Part shown: positions 19,410 through 27,408 of the stretch, one piece after another
How positions within the stretch are numbered: the first letter of the stretch is position 1
How the letters are laid out: the number at the start of each line of letters is the position of its first letter
Source: an archaeon
Lineage (GTDB): Archaea; Aenigmatarchaeota; Aenigmatarchaeia; GW2011-AR5
Assembly (NCBI GenBank): GCA_028279825.1
Contig: JANQNA010000002.1
Location: 62,001-126,000, forward strand
Reading direction: 5' to 3'
DNA: 64,000 bases
Translations under genes and position numbers: made by a program
The notes under the pieces: generated by a model
The model's input: the letters and a program-made list of their open reading frames with translations, nothing else
Database searches by the model: none
What the model was told of the DNA's origin: nothing

Positions 19410-19438
19410 ACGAGTTCAGAATATGGATGGGCCCGACG
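19410..19438 (+). repeat. Right boundary of possible tRNA-Lys-associated island
   Basis: It contains ACGAGTTCAGAATA (19410-19423) and, three bases later, ATGGGCCCGACG (19427-19438), which runs into the intact tRNA-Lys gene. Both occur at the left boundary (13998-14034). The tRNA copy at this side is complete, as expected where an integrating element restores the target tRNA. Confidence 0.5.
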
Positions 19439-19543
19439 AGATTCGAACTCGCGACATCCTGCTAACCTTTTTGGGAAAAAGCTTAACCAAAAACTCTTCC
19501 CATATTAAGAGGCAGGCGCTCTGCCAGGCTGAGCTACAGGCCC
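19428..19543 (-). tRNA. tRNA-Lys (anticodon CTT) with a 42-nt intron at 37/38
   Basis: On the minus strand a full cloverleaf can be drawn: acceptor GGGCCTG/CGGGCCC with discriminator A, D-arm GCTC...GAGC, anticodon stem CCTGC/GCAGG, T-arm GCGAG-TTCGAAT-CTCGT. The anticodon loop reads CT-CTT-A, then about 42 nt of insert (19464-19505), then A at position 38. Removing it leaves a 74-nt tRNA. The position is the canonical archaeal intron site cut by the splicing endonuclease. No CCA is encoded. Its 3' end is duplicated at 13998. Confidence 0.92.
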
Positions 19544-19635: not shown

Positions 19636-20019
19636 ATGAGGGTCATTGACTATGGAATCATGGCTGTTGTAGCGGTTGTTTTGCTAGTTGTTGGAATTAT
19701 GCTTCTTCCTTCCGGTCCTACACAGGCTTCTCTGGATGATTCTTATAAACTTGCATGCGGACAACTTTTGGAGCAGAACTGTGAGCAGGCTTCTATTAAT
19801 TCTATAACAGGACTGGAATCAGACAAGACAACGTATACACTTGGTACGCTATGTGCACAGAAGGGCTATACAGATACCGCCAGCTGTGCAAAATCCTGTG
19901 GCTGTGTCAATACAGAGACTGCTTCAACGGATCTCGTTGACATGCCACTTACCGCTTATAGTGACAATCCTGTTACACAGGGTGCTCTGATAGACGAGGG
20001 AGATTTGTTTGAATATTAA
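19636..20019 (+). CDS. Small N-terminally anchored Cys-containing membrane protein
   Basis: A 127-residue protein starting at the ATG at 19636, about 30 nt after ATTATAAG (leaderless spacing); the in-frame TTG at 19618 is the alternative. One N-terminal helix (IMAVVAVVLLVVGIMLL) is followed by an extracellular part with cysteines (ACGQLLEQNCEQ, CAKSCGCVN). Length, topology and the CxxxxxxxC motif after the helix resemble the protein at 11998, and both neighbour a giant exported protein. It overlaps the next gene by 11 nt, so co-translation is likely. A pilin-like class III signal is not clearly present. Function is unknown. Confidence 0.8.
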   Translation: MRVIDYGIMAVVAVVLLVVGIMLLPSGPTQASLDDSYKLACGQLLEQNCEQASINSITGLESDKTTYTLGTLCAQKGYTDTASCAKSCGCVNTETASTDLVDMPLTAYSDNPVTQGALIDEGDLFEY

Positions 20020-23000
20020 ACTGGTTGCATTGATTTTGGTGTTGCTAGGCGGATTTGCTTATGCTAACTGTGCTGAGACTTCTGAATACATAGACGGCAC
20101 CATTGTTACCATGGATTCATGTCGAGATCGTGGTGGTACAGTTGATTTATGCAATGTAAACAGTCCTGGTCAGCAGTGCTGTTATTTCACTTGTGATACA
20201 CCACCTGTCCCGGATACACCTGTGGATACATGTACGGAAGTGGAAGAACCGATTGATCCAACAAACACTGCTATTCAATCTTGTATAAACAGTGGCGGGA
20301 GAGATGGAACTTGCACTAGCAATCCTAATCTTCATTGTTGTTTCAGAAGTTCCTGTGATACAACCCCAAGTACACCAATCACCCAAACACCTGTTACTCC
20401 AATAACGCCTGATGTTTACGATACACCTGTATCTACTGGCTATGGGAATTGTATAAAGGACCCTTTCAAAGAGTATCAGTGTATAAACGTTTTAGATCAG
20501 CAGGAACTGGCAGCATGTGAGGCTGCAGGCAGGTCTACTATAAACGGTTATTGTCCTGGTGCAGAGAACATAAAGTGCTGTATTCCTGACAGCGAGCTTA
20601 GGGAGTACAAACACGTTTATGACTATTCACATGTGATCGACGACGAAGCAGAAGAAGTAGTTAATGGTATCCTGAGAAAACTGGAGAACGAGGAACTGGT
20701 TTCTATAGTAATTGTTACTACAGATTATTTTCCGAGAAAGACACTTGACAGGTATGACTTCATAAACGAAATATATGAGGAAGAAGATCTGCGAAGCTCG
20801 GAAACAAGGGCATTGTTTATTCTTGATGTGAACAGAAGCGATGACATCCTCGTCAACAAAAGTACTCTGCATCTGTCAGCATGCAAAGGGTTTAGAGAAA
20901 AATTATGGCGTATAGCCATGGGCGACGAACATAACAATAAAAGACTGCTTGATGTTGAAACGTCCAAGGGCCAGCGTTACTATGCATCCTTTACAAATTT
21001 AGCAAATGACATATACAATTTTGTAACGGAAAATCCTGCCGGAGCAGTTTGTGCTGATGCTGCATTGACATCGGCAGTGGCAGATTTTGCATTTGCAAGT
21101 GCATTGGGAGCAAACTGGCTTGAACGGACAGCTCTTGCGTGCCAGGAAATGCCTGAACTTTTTGCAAAGGCATTCGAAGCAGCAGATTCACCCGTGAATA
21201 TATTCATTGCGGATGAAACTTGTGACGCACTTCTGCGAAGCGAGATTACAAGACAGATGGATGAAGAATACCAAAGAATTCAGACGGCAATAGGCGATAC
21301 TTACAAAGATGAAAACTACAAGGCTACTGAATACGTGACAAAGGTACCTGCTTGTCATGGTGATGTTGTCGGTAAATACGGTTGTGTAGAACTGGCCTCA
21401 GGTGGATACGACATGAGGCAATGTACTGCTACCGGTGAGGTTGCTATGTCTGCATCAGGAACCGCAAAGGTGGGCGAAAACTTCAACATTGTATCAAGAT
21501 TTGCAGACGACAGGGATGTCACTGTTCACAAAATACACTGGTCTGTTGCAGATCCGAGCGGATACACCATAGCTGCTGGCACAGAGGATTGTACTTCAGA
21601 GATAAATGTTGCTACTGATTTCTGCAACAAATTATTCAATAATATACCGTATGACTGGTCAGGTGCAACTCTATATTATCGTTCAGAAGTCAGATATGAT
21701 TCTGGTTTAATAACCTATACCACTGTGGATACACCAAGTAATGGTGTGCAGTGCCCGCTTGATGAGGATAAATGTTTCAAGATTCTTATACAACCAGCAG
21801 ATTCAAATATAATATCAATTTCAACACCATCCCCATCTGAGCCTGATTACAGGTGGAGAGATGATTCATTTTTTGTCAGCTCTATCGGCAGCAAGGTCCT
21901 GGATATCATTGACCCTTCAAAGATATACCCGACTATTGAAAACTGCAGGGATGAATGTCACATATACTTTGATGGTGAAGGCAAGTGTGCACACCAGGTA
22001 AACAATGTACCTGTTGAGTACGGAACAGATGCATTTCTTGTACATATGACGACGGATATCGACAGAGTCGTGGATAGAAATAATCTGGAGGCAGACCGGG
22101 ATCAGCTAAGCGCAGTCACGCAATGTTACAGGGAATCAGGGCGTAAACTGAGCCACATACTGGAAAGTCCTGAAGTTTGCACAAGTATCAACCAGTACCA
22201 GACTACTGTTTTCAGTTCAATGTTAGTAGGACAGGCGTTCATTTCTAATGCAAGGATACAGGCATTAAGAGATATAGAAGACGGCTGGAATCCTGAGAGT
22301 GTGACTGGCAAGACTTTATGTGATGCTCACTGGGACGCTGCACAAAACATAGAAAGCCGCGTGGCCGTCACAAGCCAGATAAATCTTATTGACAAGATCA
22401 ACGCCTACGGTCTTGTTATACACGCGTGCGGGAACCTTGATGATACTGATGCCAGAAACAGGGTTACGACAGCTATTAGCAAGATCCAGAATGAATACCC
22501 TAATTCAGGATTTATGCGTGGACTCTGGAATTCTGTTGCGTACATGAGCGATCCTATGATGCTGGAGATAATACTGGCAACGACAGCAGTCGCTGTTGTC
22601 GTTCCTGCTGTCGCACCCCCGGCAGTTGCTTCTGCTGTTCACGCGACTATAACAACGTCTTTCCTTGTTCCAATGACGATTCACATGCCAAGCATGACGA
22701 TGGCGTGCATTGACGCCGGTATTAATTCACAGTCATGCGGCGAGGCCACGGCTAATGCTATATTCATTGCTGCCCTGTCCAAGGCTACATGGCATAGCGT
22801 CAAAGGTATGAGAGGCGTCGGTGAAGTGGTTACAACGGCCGATGGAAATATCCTTAAGTTTAAACCGGAGGATTTTGTTGAACTTAGAAAATCGGTTACA
22901 GAGAGGGCTGAATACCTGAGAGGGGAAAAGGAAAGAGCAACTGAAAGGGCAGAAAGACGCGGCTGTGGTCGTGGACCTGTTACAGGTGGTGTTGTTGGGT

Positions 23001-24838
23001 GTGCTCCAGAAGTTTTAGAAGAGGCACAGAGAACTATAGAAAAGATTGATAAAGAACTTGCCATTTTAGAAGAGGCAAGAAAGACGATAGAGGGGCCTAT
23101 GGAGAGTATTGCAGGTGGAATACTAGACCTTGTCAGGCATGCACAGGCAAATTTGTTTTCTCGTGATAGCGCAATGCTGAGCAGCTTACGGGAACAGCTT
23201 CGTTTAAAATATGACATTTTCCCTGAACTCAAAGGCTCGTTGTCAAAAATCGAAAGCGCAATAGCTGAATTTGAGAGGGGAGCTGTCAAGGCAGAGAGAA
23301 CACAAAGAGGTACTGTCGATAAAAGCAAGCCTGAAGTCAGATTAGGCCCTAAGACAAAATCCCGCTTTACTATTCGTGAAATGATAATCGACGATCTTGT
23401 ACTGAAAATACAAAAACACGAAAAATATGTTGATGTAGTCAAAGAGGTTATTGAGAGCAAGGAATTTGAGGTAAAAGTTTCCCAAGCACTTGATAAGGCT
23501 TCAGATTTCTATAGAGAAACCCATGGAATTGATCTTTCATCACATGTTTCAGGTCCTGTTGAAATGGTCGTAGATTATGTTGGTCATGGAGTAACTGCGA
23601 CGGTTTTCAGGGCCAGGATAAAAGCTGGAAGTAAAACAGCTGAAATTACTATAAGAATTACTGATCCGGAGGGAGTTGTACCGGGCATATTTGAATTTAA
23701 TGAAGTAGGACTTCAAGCAGAAATGAAAACAAGACAGCATCTTGCTGAAAAGAACCTGATGGCACGTGAATTTCTCGAAGAACCTATTACTGTGAATAAT
23801 ATGCCTGTTACTATTGGAGAATATGTTCCTGGTATTACTTATTATGATGCTGCATTGATTTTACGTAACTCTAAAGTTGACAGGTTCTTCATTGATTTTG
23901 ATACACGACCAGTTGAACTTTCAAGAGGCGTAGTTAGAAGTGCCCAGGAAAAGTTTCCAGAAATGGATTTATTTAAAGAAAACACTATTGATCCGAGTTT
24001 CTTGCCAGACGTGGAAGTAAAACGACTGGAGCGTGAATTTGCAAGACAATCTACACATGCGGTTGGTGATCTTGTTGGAAGATGGTTCAAGGAAATGACT
24101 ACTGATGGTGAAACTGCTTTTGTACCATTTGATGGCAAAGCTAATAATCTAAAACTATATGTCAGGGATGGTAAACTTGAAGCAAAATATGTTGATCCTG
24201 TTCACCCTCAGGTACCTGATTATAATGCTAGATCTGTTACACCAGAGGGTTTTTCTACTTATAACACTTACTTTAATTTGGTTGAATTCATGAGATATCA
24301 TTTTGGTTTCTGGGAAAAGGGTGAATTCAGGGCAGAGAATTTTGTCAATGACCCAGGAATTATTGGTAGTGCTTTGCAGTATCCCGGTACTTTGAACCAT
24401 TTCATGGAAGGAATGTTGCCTCATATAAAGGGGGTGCAATCTCGCTATGGCGGTAAAACAGCTATTGAGCGCATCACAGAGGTGAGGGATTTCTTTGAAA
24501 GACGTAGACGTATCTTTGATGACTATGTTGCAAGACAAGAAGGAACGGTCCAAGAGTATCAATTAGCTGATCTTACTTCACATGAAGTGTCTCTGGTAAT
24601 GAATAACCGGATTAATGTTGTTACTGCCAGAAGAATAGTTGATATATATGGAAAATACGTGAGAGAGCTTGATCCACTTATAAAAGAACTTCGTGAGAAC
24701 CCCGACTATGTACCTGATTTGAACAGGCCTGGAATCTTTATTGAGGGAGTCATGGAAGAGACTGGCTTCCAATGGACTGATCCATATGAAGTACCTGACG
24801 CAGCTATGGCACATTTCAACTTTGTTCCGATATCGTGA
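20009..24838 (+). CDS. Giant exported protein: Cys modules, TPM-like domain, membrane segment, coiled coil, kinase-like C-terminus
   Basis: A 1609-residue protein starting at a TTG (20009) with GAGGGAG just upstream; a signal peptide (LVALILVLLGGFAYA) follows. Three Cys modules with CC pairs occupy about 20-190. A TPM (TLP18.3/Psb32)-like domain begins near 200 (YDYSHVIDDEAEEVV ... SIVIVTTDYF). An Ig-like region is near 470-560. A hydrophobic stretch at about 850-895 could cross the membrane once or twice. A charged coiled coil runs about 955-1100. The last ~430 residues resemble a protein kinase fold: GHGVTATVFRARI (loop, ~1192), QAEMKTRQHL (helix C Glu, ~1237), D1375-GKAN-N1380 matching the catalytic DxKxxN spacing, and YVDP with D1396 at the DFG place. 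The ATP-site Lys appears as Arg (ITIRI). If the hydrophobic stretch crosses once, the kinase-like part is cytoplasmic. Confidence 0.75.
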   Translation: MNIKLVALILVLLGGFAYANCAETSEYIDGTIVTMDSCRDRGGTVDLCNVNSPGQQCCYFTCDTPPVPDTPVDTCTEVEEPIDPTNTAIQSCINSGGRDGTCTSNPNLHCCFRSSCDTTPSTPITQTPVTPITPDVYDTPVSTGYGNCIKDPFKEYQCINVLDQQELAACEAAGRSTINGYCPGAENIKCCIPDSELREYKHVYDYSHVIDDEAEEVVNGILRKLENEELVSIVIVTTDYFPRKTLDRYDFINEIYEEEDLRSSETRALFILDVNRSDDILVNKSTLHLSACKGFREKLWRIAMGDEHNNKRLLDVETSKGQRYYASFTNLANDIYNFVTENPAGAVCADAALTSAVADFAFASALGANWLERTALACQEMPELFAKAFEAADSPVNIFIADETCDALLRSEITRQMDEEYQRIQTAIGDTYKDENYKATEYVTKVPACHGDVVGKYGCVELASGGYDMRQCTATGEVAMSASGTAKVGENFNIVSRFADDRDVTVHKIHWSVADPSGYTIAAGTEDCTSEINVATDFCNKLFNNIPYDWSGATLYYRSEVRYDSGLITYTTVDTPSNGVQCPLDEDKCFKILIQPADSNIISISTPSPSEPDYRWRDDSFFVSSIGSKVLDIIDPSKIYPTIENCRDECHIYFDGEGKCAHQVNNVPVEYGTDAFLVHMTTDIDRVVDRNNLEADRDQLSAVTQCYRESGRKLSHILESPEVCTSINQYQTTVFSSMLVGQAFISNARIQALRDIEDGWNPESVTGKTLCDAHWDAAQNIESRVAVTSQINLIDKINAYGLVIHACGNLDDTDARNRVTTAISKIQNEYPNSGFMRGLWNSVAYMSDPMMLEIILATTAVAVVVPAVAPPAVASAVHATITTSFLVPMTIHMPSMTMACIDAGINSQSCGEATANAIFIAALSKATWHSVKGMRGVGEVVTTADGNILKFKPEDFVELRKSVTERAEYLRGEKERATERAERRGCGRGPVTGGVVGCAPEVLEEAQRTIEKIDKELAILEEARKTIEGPMESIAGGILDLVRHAQANLFSRDSAMLSSLREQLRLKYDIFPELKGSLSKIESAIAEFERGAVKAERTQRGTVDKSKPEVRLGPKTKSRFTIREMIIDDLVLKIQKHEKYVDVVKEVIESKEFEVKVSQALDKASDFYRETHGIDLSSHVSGPVEMVVDYVGHGVTATVFRARIKAGSKTAEITIRITDPEGVVPGIFEFNEVGLQAEMKTRQHLAEKNLMAREFLEEPITVNNMPVTIGEYVPGITYYDAALILRNSKVDRFFIDFDTRPVELSRGVVRSAQEKFPEMDLFKENTIDPSFLPDVEVKRLEREFARQSTHAVGDLVGRWFKEMTTDGETAFVPFDGKANNLKLYVRDGKLEAKYVDPVHPQVPDYNARSVTPEGFSTYNTYFNLVEFMRYHFGFWEKGEFRAENFVNDPGIIGSALQYPGTLNHFMEGMLPHIKGVQSRYGGKTAIERITEVRDFFERRRRIFDDYVARQEGTVQEYQLADLTSHEVSLVMNNRINVVTARRIVDIYGKYVRELDPLIKELRENPDYVPDLNRPGIFIEGVMEETGFQWTDPYEVPDAAMAHFNFVPIS

Positions 24839-26422: not shown

Positions 26423-27408
26423 ATGGATCTTAGCAATAGAGATGTTGAAAATATCCTGAAAAAGTACGATATTGGTAGTCTTCAGAGGTTTACGAGGATC
26501 AAGGAAGGTCTTGTTAATTTCAATTGGAAAATAGTCACAACAAAGGGAAATTTCGTGCTCAGATGTATCCCTGAATTGGTGGAATTGAAGGATTTGCTGT
26601 TTGAACATTTATTTCTTGAGAAACTGAAAAAATCCAGATTTCCTTACGAAATAACATGTCCTATACGCAACCGAAAAAGAGCTACGTATATTGTGTACAA
26701 GAATCGTTATTTCTGGATTTACAAATTCATCGACGGCAAGCATATTAAATTGAACGGAAAAAATATTGTGCAAGTTGCAAAAATGATGGCGATCATACAC
26801 AAGAAATCTTCTGGAATGAATATGAGATATAAAAAACATTGGCCGGACGCCTTTCATCCTGACTGGTTAATAATGGATTTGAAAAAGAAAAAACGATCAA
26901 GGAAAAAAACAAGGTTGACAGGTACTTTGCCGAAAAGATAGATGACATTATAGAGATATTGGAAAAACAAAAAATGCTTTTCACCATAAAAAAGAAGATT
27001 CCCGTACATTCTGATATTATAACCCCAAACATTGTTTTTTCAAACGGCAGACTGAAAGGACTTTTAGACTCAAGTAACGTCTACTTTGATTCAAAAATGG
27101 CAGACCTTTCAAATACCATCGGATTTGAATTTACTGATAGAACTGGTTTGAACTTTAGGAAAGCGCATATTTTTGTCAAGGCTTATCAAAGGCACAACAA
27201 TATATCCAGAAAGGAGATGATGATGCTTCCTTTTATGATGATCATTGTTTCTGCCGCATCGTTTTGGCACTACTACTATTGCTTGAGGTACCAGCCTAAA
27301 AGAAAGGTGAGAATGGGTCATATGGTAACAGAATACAGGAAAACTATGTGGTTCTTCAAGAATCGTGAGAAGCTTCAGAAAACATTTTGTGAGTGGTTAA
27401 AAAAGTAA
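26423..27408 (+). pseudogene. APH/ThrB-like small-molecule kinase, frameshifted
   Basis: Two consecutive frames together make one aminoglycoside phosphotransferase-fold protein of about 327 residues, of the homoserine kinase type II/choline kinase kind. The first part (from ATG 26423) has the N-lobe (EGLVNFNWKIVTTKGNFVLR). The second, in the -1 frame, has the catalytic loop VHSDIITPN (HxDxxxxN) and the metal-binding LLDSSN. The frames can be joined at the A-runs at 26882-26893: adding one A in GAAAAAG restores KKEKTIKEKN and a continuous reading. So either one base was lost in the genome, or it is an assembly/sequencing error at a homopolymer. A canonical slippery heptamer in phase is not seen, so programmed frameshifting is less likely. 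The substrate is unknown. Confidence 0.8.

Follow-up and report, generated by a model that had tools for sequence, protein, structure and literature searches.

The window, a stretch of 64,000 nucleotides, contains a gene for a giant exported protein whose C-terminal part carries residues with the spacing found in protein kinases. Since these residues are present and their spacing is above chance, residues 1180–1440 are best read as a divergent kinase-like domain, and the region 1181–1440 probably has a kinase-like fold. That the complete protein is a receptor (pseudo)kinase, with the caveat that it might be a pseudokinase, is our preferred but tentative interpretation; at present it is a well-defined orphan candidate and not an established receptor kinase. 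If the kinase-like fold is true, the gene encodes one of two things: a receptor (pseudo)kinase of an archaeon in which, as in eukaryotes, the ectodomain comes first and the kinase last, or a kinase-like effector within exported proteins. In both cases the DPANN archaea, tiny organisms that are thought to live on other cells, would put the kinase fold to a new use.

The host genome (978 kb, 91% complete) belongs to an uncultured aenigmatarchaeon related to GW2011_AR5; its uL2 protein is 68% identical to that of GW2011_AR5 and 51–68% identical to those of other Aenigmatarchaeota. The giant gene carries the sequence GAGGGAG approximately 4 bases upstream of its start codon. Its start overlaps by 11 bases with the upstream ORF, for which a Pfam search gave no match, and the two genes are probably co-transcribed. 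Neither of the two small downstream ORFs could be assigned to a family, and a search of the phylum gave no relative of the second one. Further upstream an intron-containing tRNA gene is located on the minus strand (19428–19543), which scores 54.5 bits with Rfam and was missed by ARAGORN at its standard setting. Downstream, at 26423–27408 on the plus strand, an APH-family phosphotransferase gene is found in two ORFs (172 and 149 amino acids), which weakly match the start and the end of the APH family in Pfam; this is probably a frameshifted gene or a pseudogene.

Features of the giant gene and its immediate neighbours (positions in the window; residues are those of the giant protein)
Feature	Position	Strand	Description
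Small exported protein, 133 aa	19618..20019	+	N-terminally anchored, Cys-containing; TM 8–30, deltaG −2.38
Giant ORF	20009..24838	+	single uninterrupted frame, 1,609 aa, TTG start
Signal peptide, residues 1–22 (..GGFAYA/N)	20009..20074	+	sequence; deltaG −0.77
Three Cys modules, residues 20–200	20066..20608	+	18 Cys; CC pair in each module
TPM domain, residues 203–280	20615..20848	+	Pfam PF04536, E 2.6e-5, 24.7 bits (cut-off 22.1)
Remaining ectodomain, residues 345–845	21041..22543	+	no known family; exported-like composition, P up to 0.99
Hydrophobic zone, residues 850–926	22556..22786	+	includes C900/C910; 850–869 only (marginal) membrane candidate
Charged helical stalk, residues ~960–1110	22886..23338	+	composition; interrupted by Gly-rich loop with C986/C998
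Kinase-like region, residues 1181–1440	23549..24328	+	residue spacing; element order in low-confidence models
C-terminal helical tail, residues 1441–1609	24329..24838	+	predicted helices
Small ORF, 78 aa	24877..25113	+	starts 38 bases downstream of giant gene
Small ORF, 92 aa	25110..25388	+	GTG start; overlaps preceding 78-aa ORF

The signal peptide, the Cys modules and the TPM-like domain had all been proposed in the initial annotation and were recovered here, the last as a Pfam match above the cut-off, which makes the protein a TPM-domain protein. The proposed Ig-like region receives no support from Pfam and is plausible by eye only. The predicted coiled-coil segment corresponds to the charged stretch, which is predicted to be helical and has a K/R/E/Q content of 42% in residues 960–1030. 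At the C-terminal end, residues ~1441–1510 could complete a kinase C-lobe.

The residues with kinase-like spacing are located where they had been placed before. A glycine-rich loop of the type GxGxxxxV is present (G1192-H-G1194-VTAT-V1199; G-loop 1192–1200). The beta3 lysine of the VAIK motif is absent; 17 residues past V1199 the sequence reads ITIR with R1216 instead, as expected from the suggested exchange of Lys for Arg at the ATP site. The candidate for the helix C glutamate, placed from sequence only, is E1238 (or E1232), for which the distance fits, and the hinge GEYVPG is found at 1270–1275. The catalytic loop D-x4-N is present (D1375-GKAN-N1380), with the His and Arg of the HRD motif missing. 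The Asp of the DFG motif, D1396 in YVDPVH, follows 16 residues past N1380; the Phe and Gly are missing. Because the beta3 Lys, the HRD His and Arg and the DFG Phe and Gly are all missing, the region is more likely to be a pseudokinase or a phosphotransferase distant from the Hanks group than a regular protein kinase. On three counts, the beta3 Lys, the completeness of the motifs and detection by profiles, the protein does not qualify as a member of the kinase family, though its fold may be that of a kinase.

The complete spacing pattern was found in none of 3,000 shuffled versions of the giant protein, and a loose pattern (G-loop...DxxxxN...D) in 10 of 3,000, approximately 0.3% per protein of this kind. 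We also scanned 2,086 archaeal ORFs of at least 100 amino acids (450,206 amino acids, all loci fetched at that time). Here the loose pattern occurs in the giant protein, whose locus is present in three copies, and otherwise in nine ORFs, all of them from loci obtained in the searches with Pfam Pkinase and APH or duplicates of these. The patterns were composed after the sequence had been read, and thus the figures from shuffles and ORFs are not clean probabilities; the specificity is still good.

Searches against Pfam, NCBIfam, PHROGs, PADLOC and PDB sequences gave no kinase match to the C-terminal region. Profiles of aenigmatarchaeal Hanks, Bud32 and APH proteins, which were home-made, small and partly short, gave no signal above shuffled sequences with hmmsearch and hhalign. 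Two single-sequence AlphaFold models (492 and 272 amino acids) reached a pLDDT of 42–43. At this low confidence both have strands and helices in the order known from kinases: beta1–3, a poorly predicted alphaC, beta4–5, alphaD, an insert, alphaE and beta6–8. With these two models (pLDDT 42–43), Foldseek gave no kinase match that could be relied on, and none of the E values fell below 0.001; matches to chains of PI3K complexes, dsRBD, Hsp70 and others were dismissed as meaningless. Thus, the kinase-like domain of the initial annotation stands on its residues, the Lys-to-Arg exchange and the spacing above chance, with no backing from profiles, PDB or structure, and the structure prediction and fold search proposed to check it yielded the element order without a trustworthy match.

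An explanation that does without a kinase is that the spacing is coincidental and residues 1181–1440 are an orphan alpha/beta domain in a surface protein that evolves fast, and we regard this as quite conceivable, though short of even chances. The profile and fold searches, which lend the kinase no support at all, argue for it, as do the patterns defined post hoc, the several missing motif residues and the fact that a loose match is expected in roughly three of a thousand shuffled versions of one such protein. It accounts poorly for several canonical spacings and the element order agreeing within one stretch, and for the restriction of the loose pattern elsewhere to ORFs from kinase-family loci.

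The membrane topology was analysed with a Hessa-type deltaG scale that was calibrated on neighbouring proteins in the same run. Residues 850–869 are the sole internal membrane candidate with a deltaG of +1.16 kcal/mol. For comparison, four exported proteins encoded nearby have C-terminal anchors at −1.75 to −5.18, and nothing below +2 is found in two aminoacyl-tRNA-synthetase-like proteins. In the window and 20 other stretches of the genome, 22 proteins have their best segment between 0.9 and 2.0, and therefore the value of 850–869 is not diagnostic. Since the hydrophobic zone extends to approximately residue 926, the number of crossings may be anything from none to three. Of the single membrane crossing considered previously, the hydrophobic segment is present, as a marginal candidate for a TM helix. 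A stretch rich in K and R (K925, K932, R935) directly follows the hydrophobic zone.

A composition classifier based on 359 proteins of the same genome (cross-validated: 92% for exported, 97% for cytosolic proteins) reads most of residues 20–844 as exported, with P(exported) of 0.89–0.99 for residues 395–844. For residues 845–1219 the value drops to 0.01–0.07; residues 1220–1609 are ambiguous, with 0.16–0.56 for the kinase core. The TPM domain, which is certainly exported, obtained only 0.29–0.52, showing that the classifier cannot decide compact folds. Past residue 850 only four Cys are found, as two close pairs (C900/C910 and C986/C998) that look like disulphide loops from their spacing in the sequence. 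The last 611 residues (999–1609) contain no Cys; the mean Cys content of the cytosolic-type proteins encoded here is 1.2%. As to the proposed location of the kinase-like part inside the cell, the composition favours the inside for 845–1219 and is ambiguous for 1220–1609, and the Cys pairs point in the opposite direction.

With tblastn, the 155 further genomes searched in the phylum, among them three of the same genus (82–87% complete), yielded no relative of residues 1118–1609, and neither did protein searches of genome, viral, phage and plasmid collections. One weakly matching locus (L008; 36% over residues 1135–1206) was dropped as a relative; the match overlies a helicase-like ORF. Only the Cys module and the TPM domain of the giant protein have relatives in the phylum, and the protein is a species-specific exported surface protein. 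The third Cys module (142–194) shows 36–39% identity to exported enzymes of sister species. In an alignment of Cys module and TPM domain (A1), identities to the first member are 25–42%, with 26% for the window protein. The Cys-TPM proteins of the same genus are exported and carry a YkuD L,D-transpeptidase domain, an SLT transglycosylase domain or a DUF1615 match. In AR5, their genes are located approximately 4 kb from eS8 on the opposite strand, near the equivalent position of the giant gene. A TPM-like region (TPM only) also leads a more distant protein with peptidase M64 and SLT domains, and regions with weak TPM support lead peptidase C25 and amidase_3 proteins.

The Cys-TPM relatives end in varied, often wall-active domains, which suggests that the N-terminal modules belong to exported enzymes with variable C-termini and makes an exported enzyme a serious rival to the receptor. 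According to this explanation the protein is a modular enzyme or effector with a constant Cys-TPM N-terminus and an exchangeable catalytic C-terminus, and the kinase-like domain acts outside the producing cell; it might act at the surface or be delivered into a partner cell instead of signalling inward. Extracellular wall-active domains at the ends of the relatives, the gene position in AR5, the C-terminal position of the catalytic domain, the paired Cys past the hydrophobic zone, the poor quality of this zone as a membrane anchor and the small ORFs directly behind the gene are all consistent with it. A precedent is given by secreted archaeal peptidoglycan hydrolases that kill bacteria, which are known by experiment (PMC12352652). 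As in polymorphic toxins, the protein is long and exported, with common N-terminal modules, C-terminal domains that are swapped among its few family members, and small genes behind it; in contrast to these, it has no recognised family among the pre-toxin, secretion and immunity families searched. Further points against an exported enzyme or effector are the cytosol-like composition past residue 845 and the absence of ATP outside the cell, unless the domain is delivered. Altogether, we consider an exported enzyme or effector rather unlikely. A more far-reaching version is that a DPANN archaeon uses a family of exported Cys-TPM proteins with exchangeable catalytic C-termini against neighbouring cells; the giant member would be a kinase-fold effector, the hydrophobic zone and the helical stalk would deliver it across the partner's membrane and the small downstream proteins would be protective. 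This appears quite improbable.

For a receptor (pseudo)kinase, the ectodomain would bind or sense something on the surface or wall of the cell, tethering in the membrane would fall to the hydrophobic zone, and the residues past ~930 would be located in the cytoplasm. Here, 1181–1440 would form a very divergent kinase-like fold that kept the Asp and Asn of the catalytic loop and the metal-binding Asp, with beta3 Lys replaced by Arg. This region might bind nucleotide as a weak kinase or as a pseudokinase switch and relay a surface signal inward. The spacing above chance, the element order of the models, the drop of the classifier after residue 845, the K925/K932/R935 stretch, the lack of Cys in 999–1609 and the occurrence of TM-anchored kinases in archaea and in the phylum argue for the receptor. 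The lack of a kinase family, profile or PDB match, the low pLDDT, the missing Lys, HRD and DFG residues, the marginal membrane segment, the ambiguous classifier values in the kinase core and the disulphide-like Cys pairs argue against it.

The Sulfolobus islandicus kinases SiRe_0101 and SiRe_2056 have TM domains (PMC5682000). In the Aenigmatarchaeota, two Hanks-type kinases (L056, 894 amino acids; L061, 531 amino acids) have the kinase at the N-terminus, followed by an apparent TM segment (by eye) and a C-terminal part that is TPR-like or extracellular. An N-terminal kinase followed by a TM segment is the order of bacterial PknB. The earlier statement that membrane receptor kinases of this build are not established in archaea is therefore too strong as regards membrane kinases, with the restriction that L056 and L061 put the kinase at the N-terminus, whereas the candidate of the giant protein is C-terminal. 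What the giant protein would share with these four proteins is a kinase-fold domain combined with a membrane segment; they have recognisable Pkinase domains, whereas the giant protein has no profile match and no beta3 Lys. A Cys-rich ectodomain followed by a C-terminal kinase-like domain would be new to the Aenigmatarchaeota. With its signal peptide and ectodomain the protein follows the same order as eukaryotic receptor (pseudo)kinases (signal peptide, Cys-rich ectodomain, hydrophobic segment, C-terminal kinase-like region), but it has no sequence kinship with them, its crossing is a candidate only, and HRD and DFG are incomplete.

The aenigmatarchaeal Cys-TPM enzymes (L096 of AR5, L103 and L130) share the Cys module and TPM domain with the giant protein but have a YkuD, SLT or another wall-active domain at the C-terminus, where the giant protein has its kinase-like region; a kinase-like end was sought in the giant SLT proteins of the relatives and not found. 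Large exported proteins with wall-active domains of bacterial type (SLT, YkuD and amidase_3, often several per protein) are encoded at L096, L103, L104, L127, L130 and L164 in the Aenigmatarchaeota, and are possibly an anti-bacterial arsenal. L164 contains what by eye look like SLT, amidase_3 and M23 domains. SLT matches are present in 19 of 40 related genomes, and one related genome contains an open frame of 3,646 amino acids with an SLT domain (G030:C6, L168).
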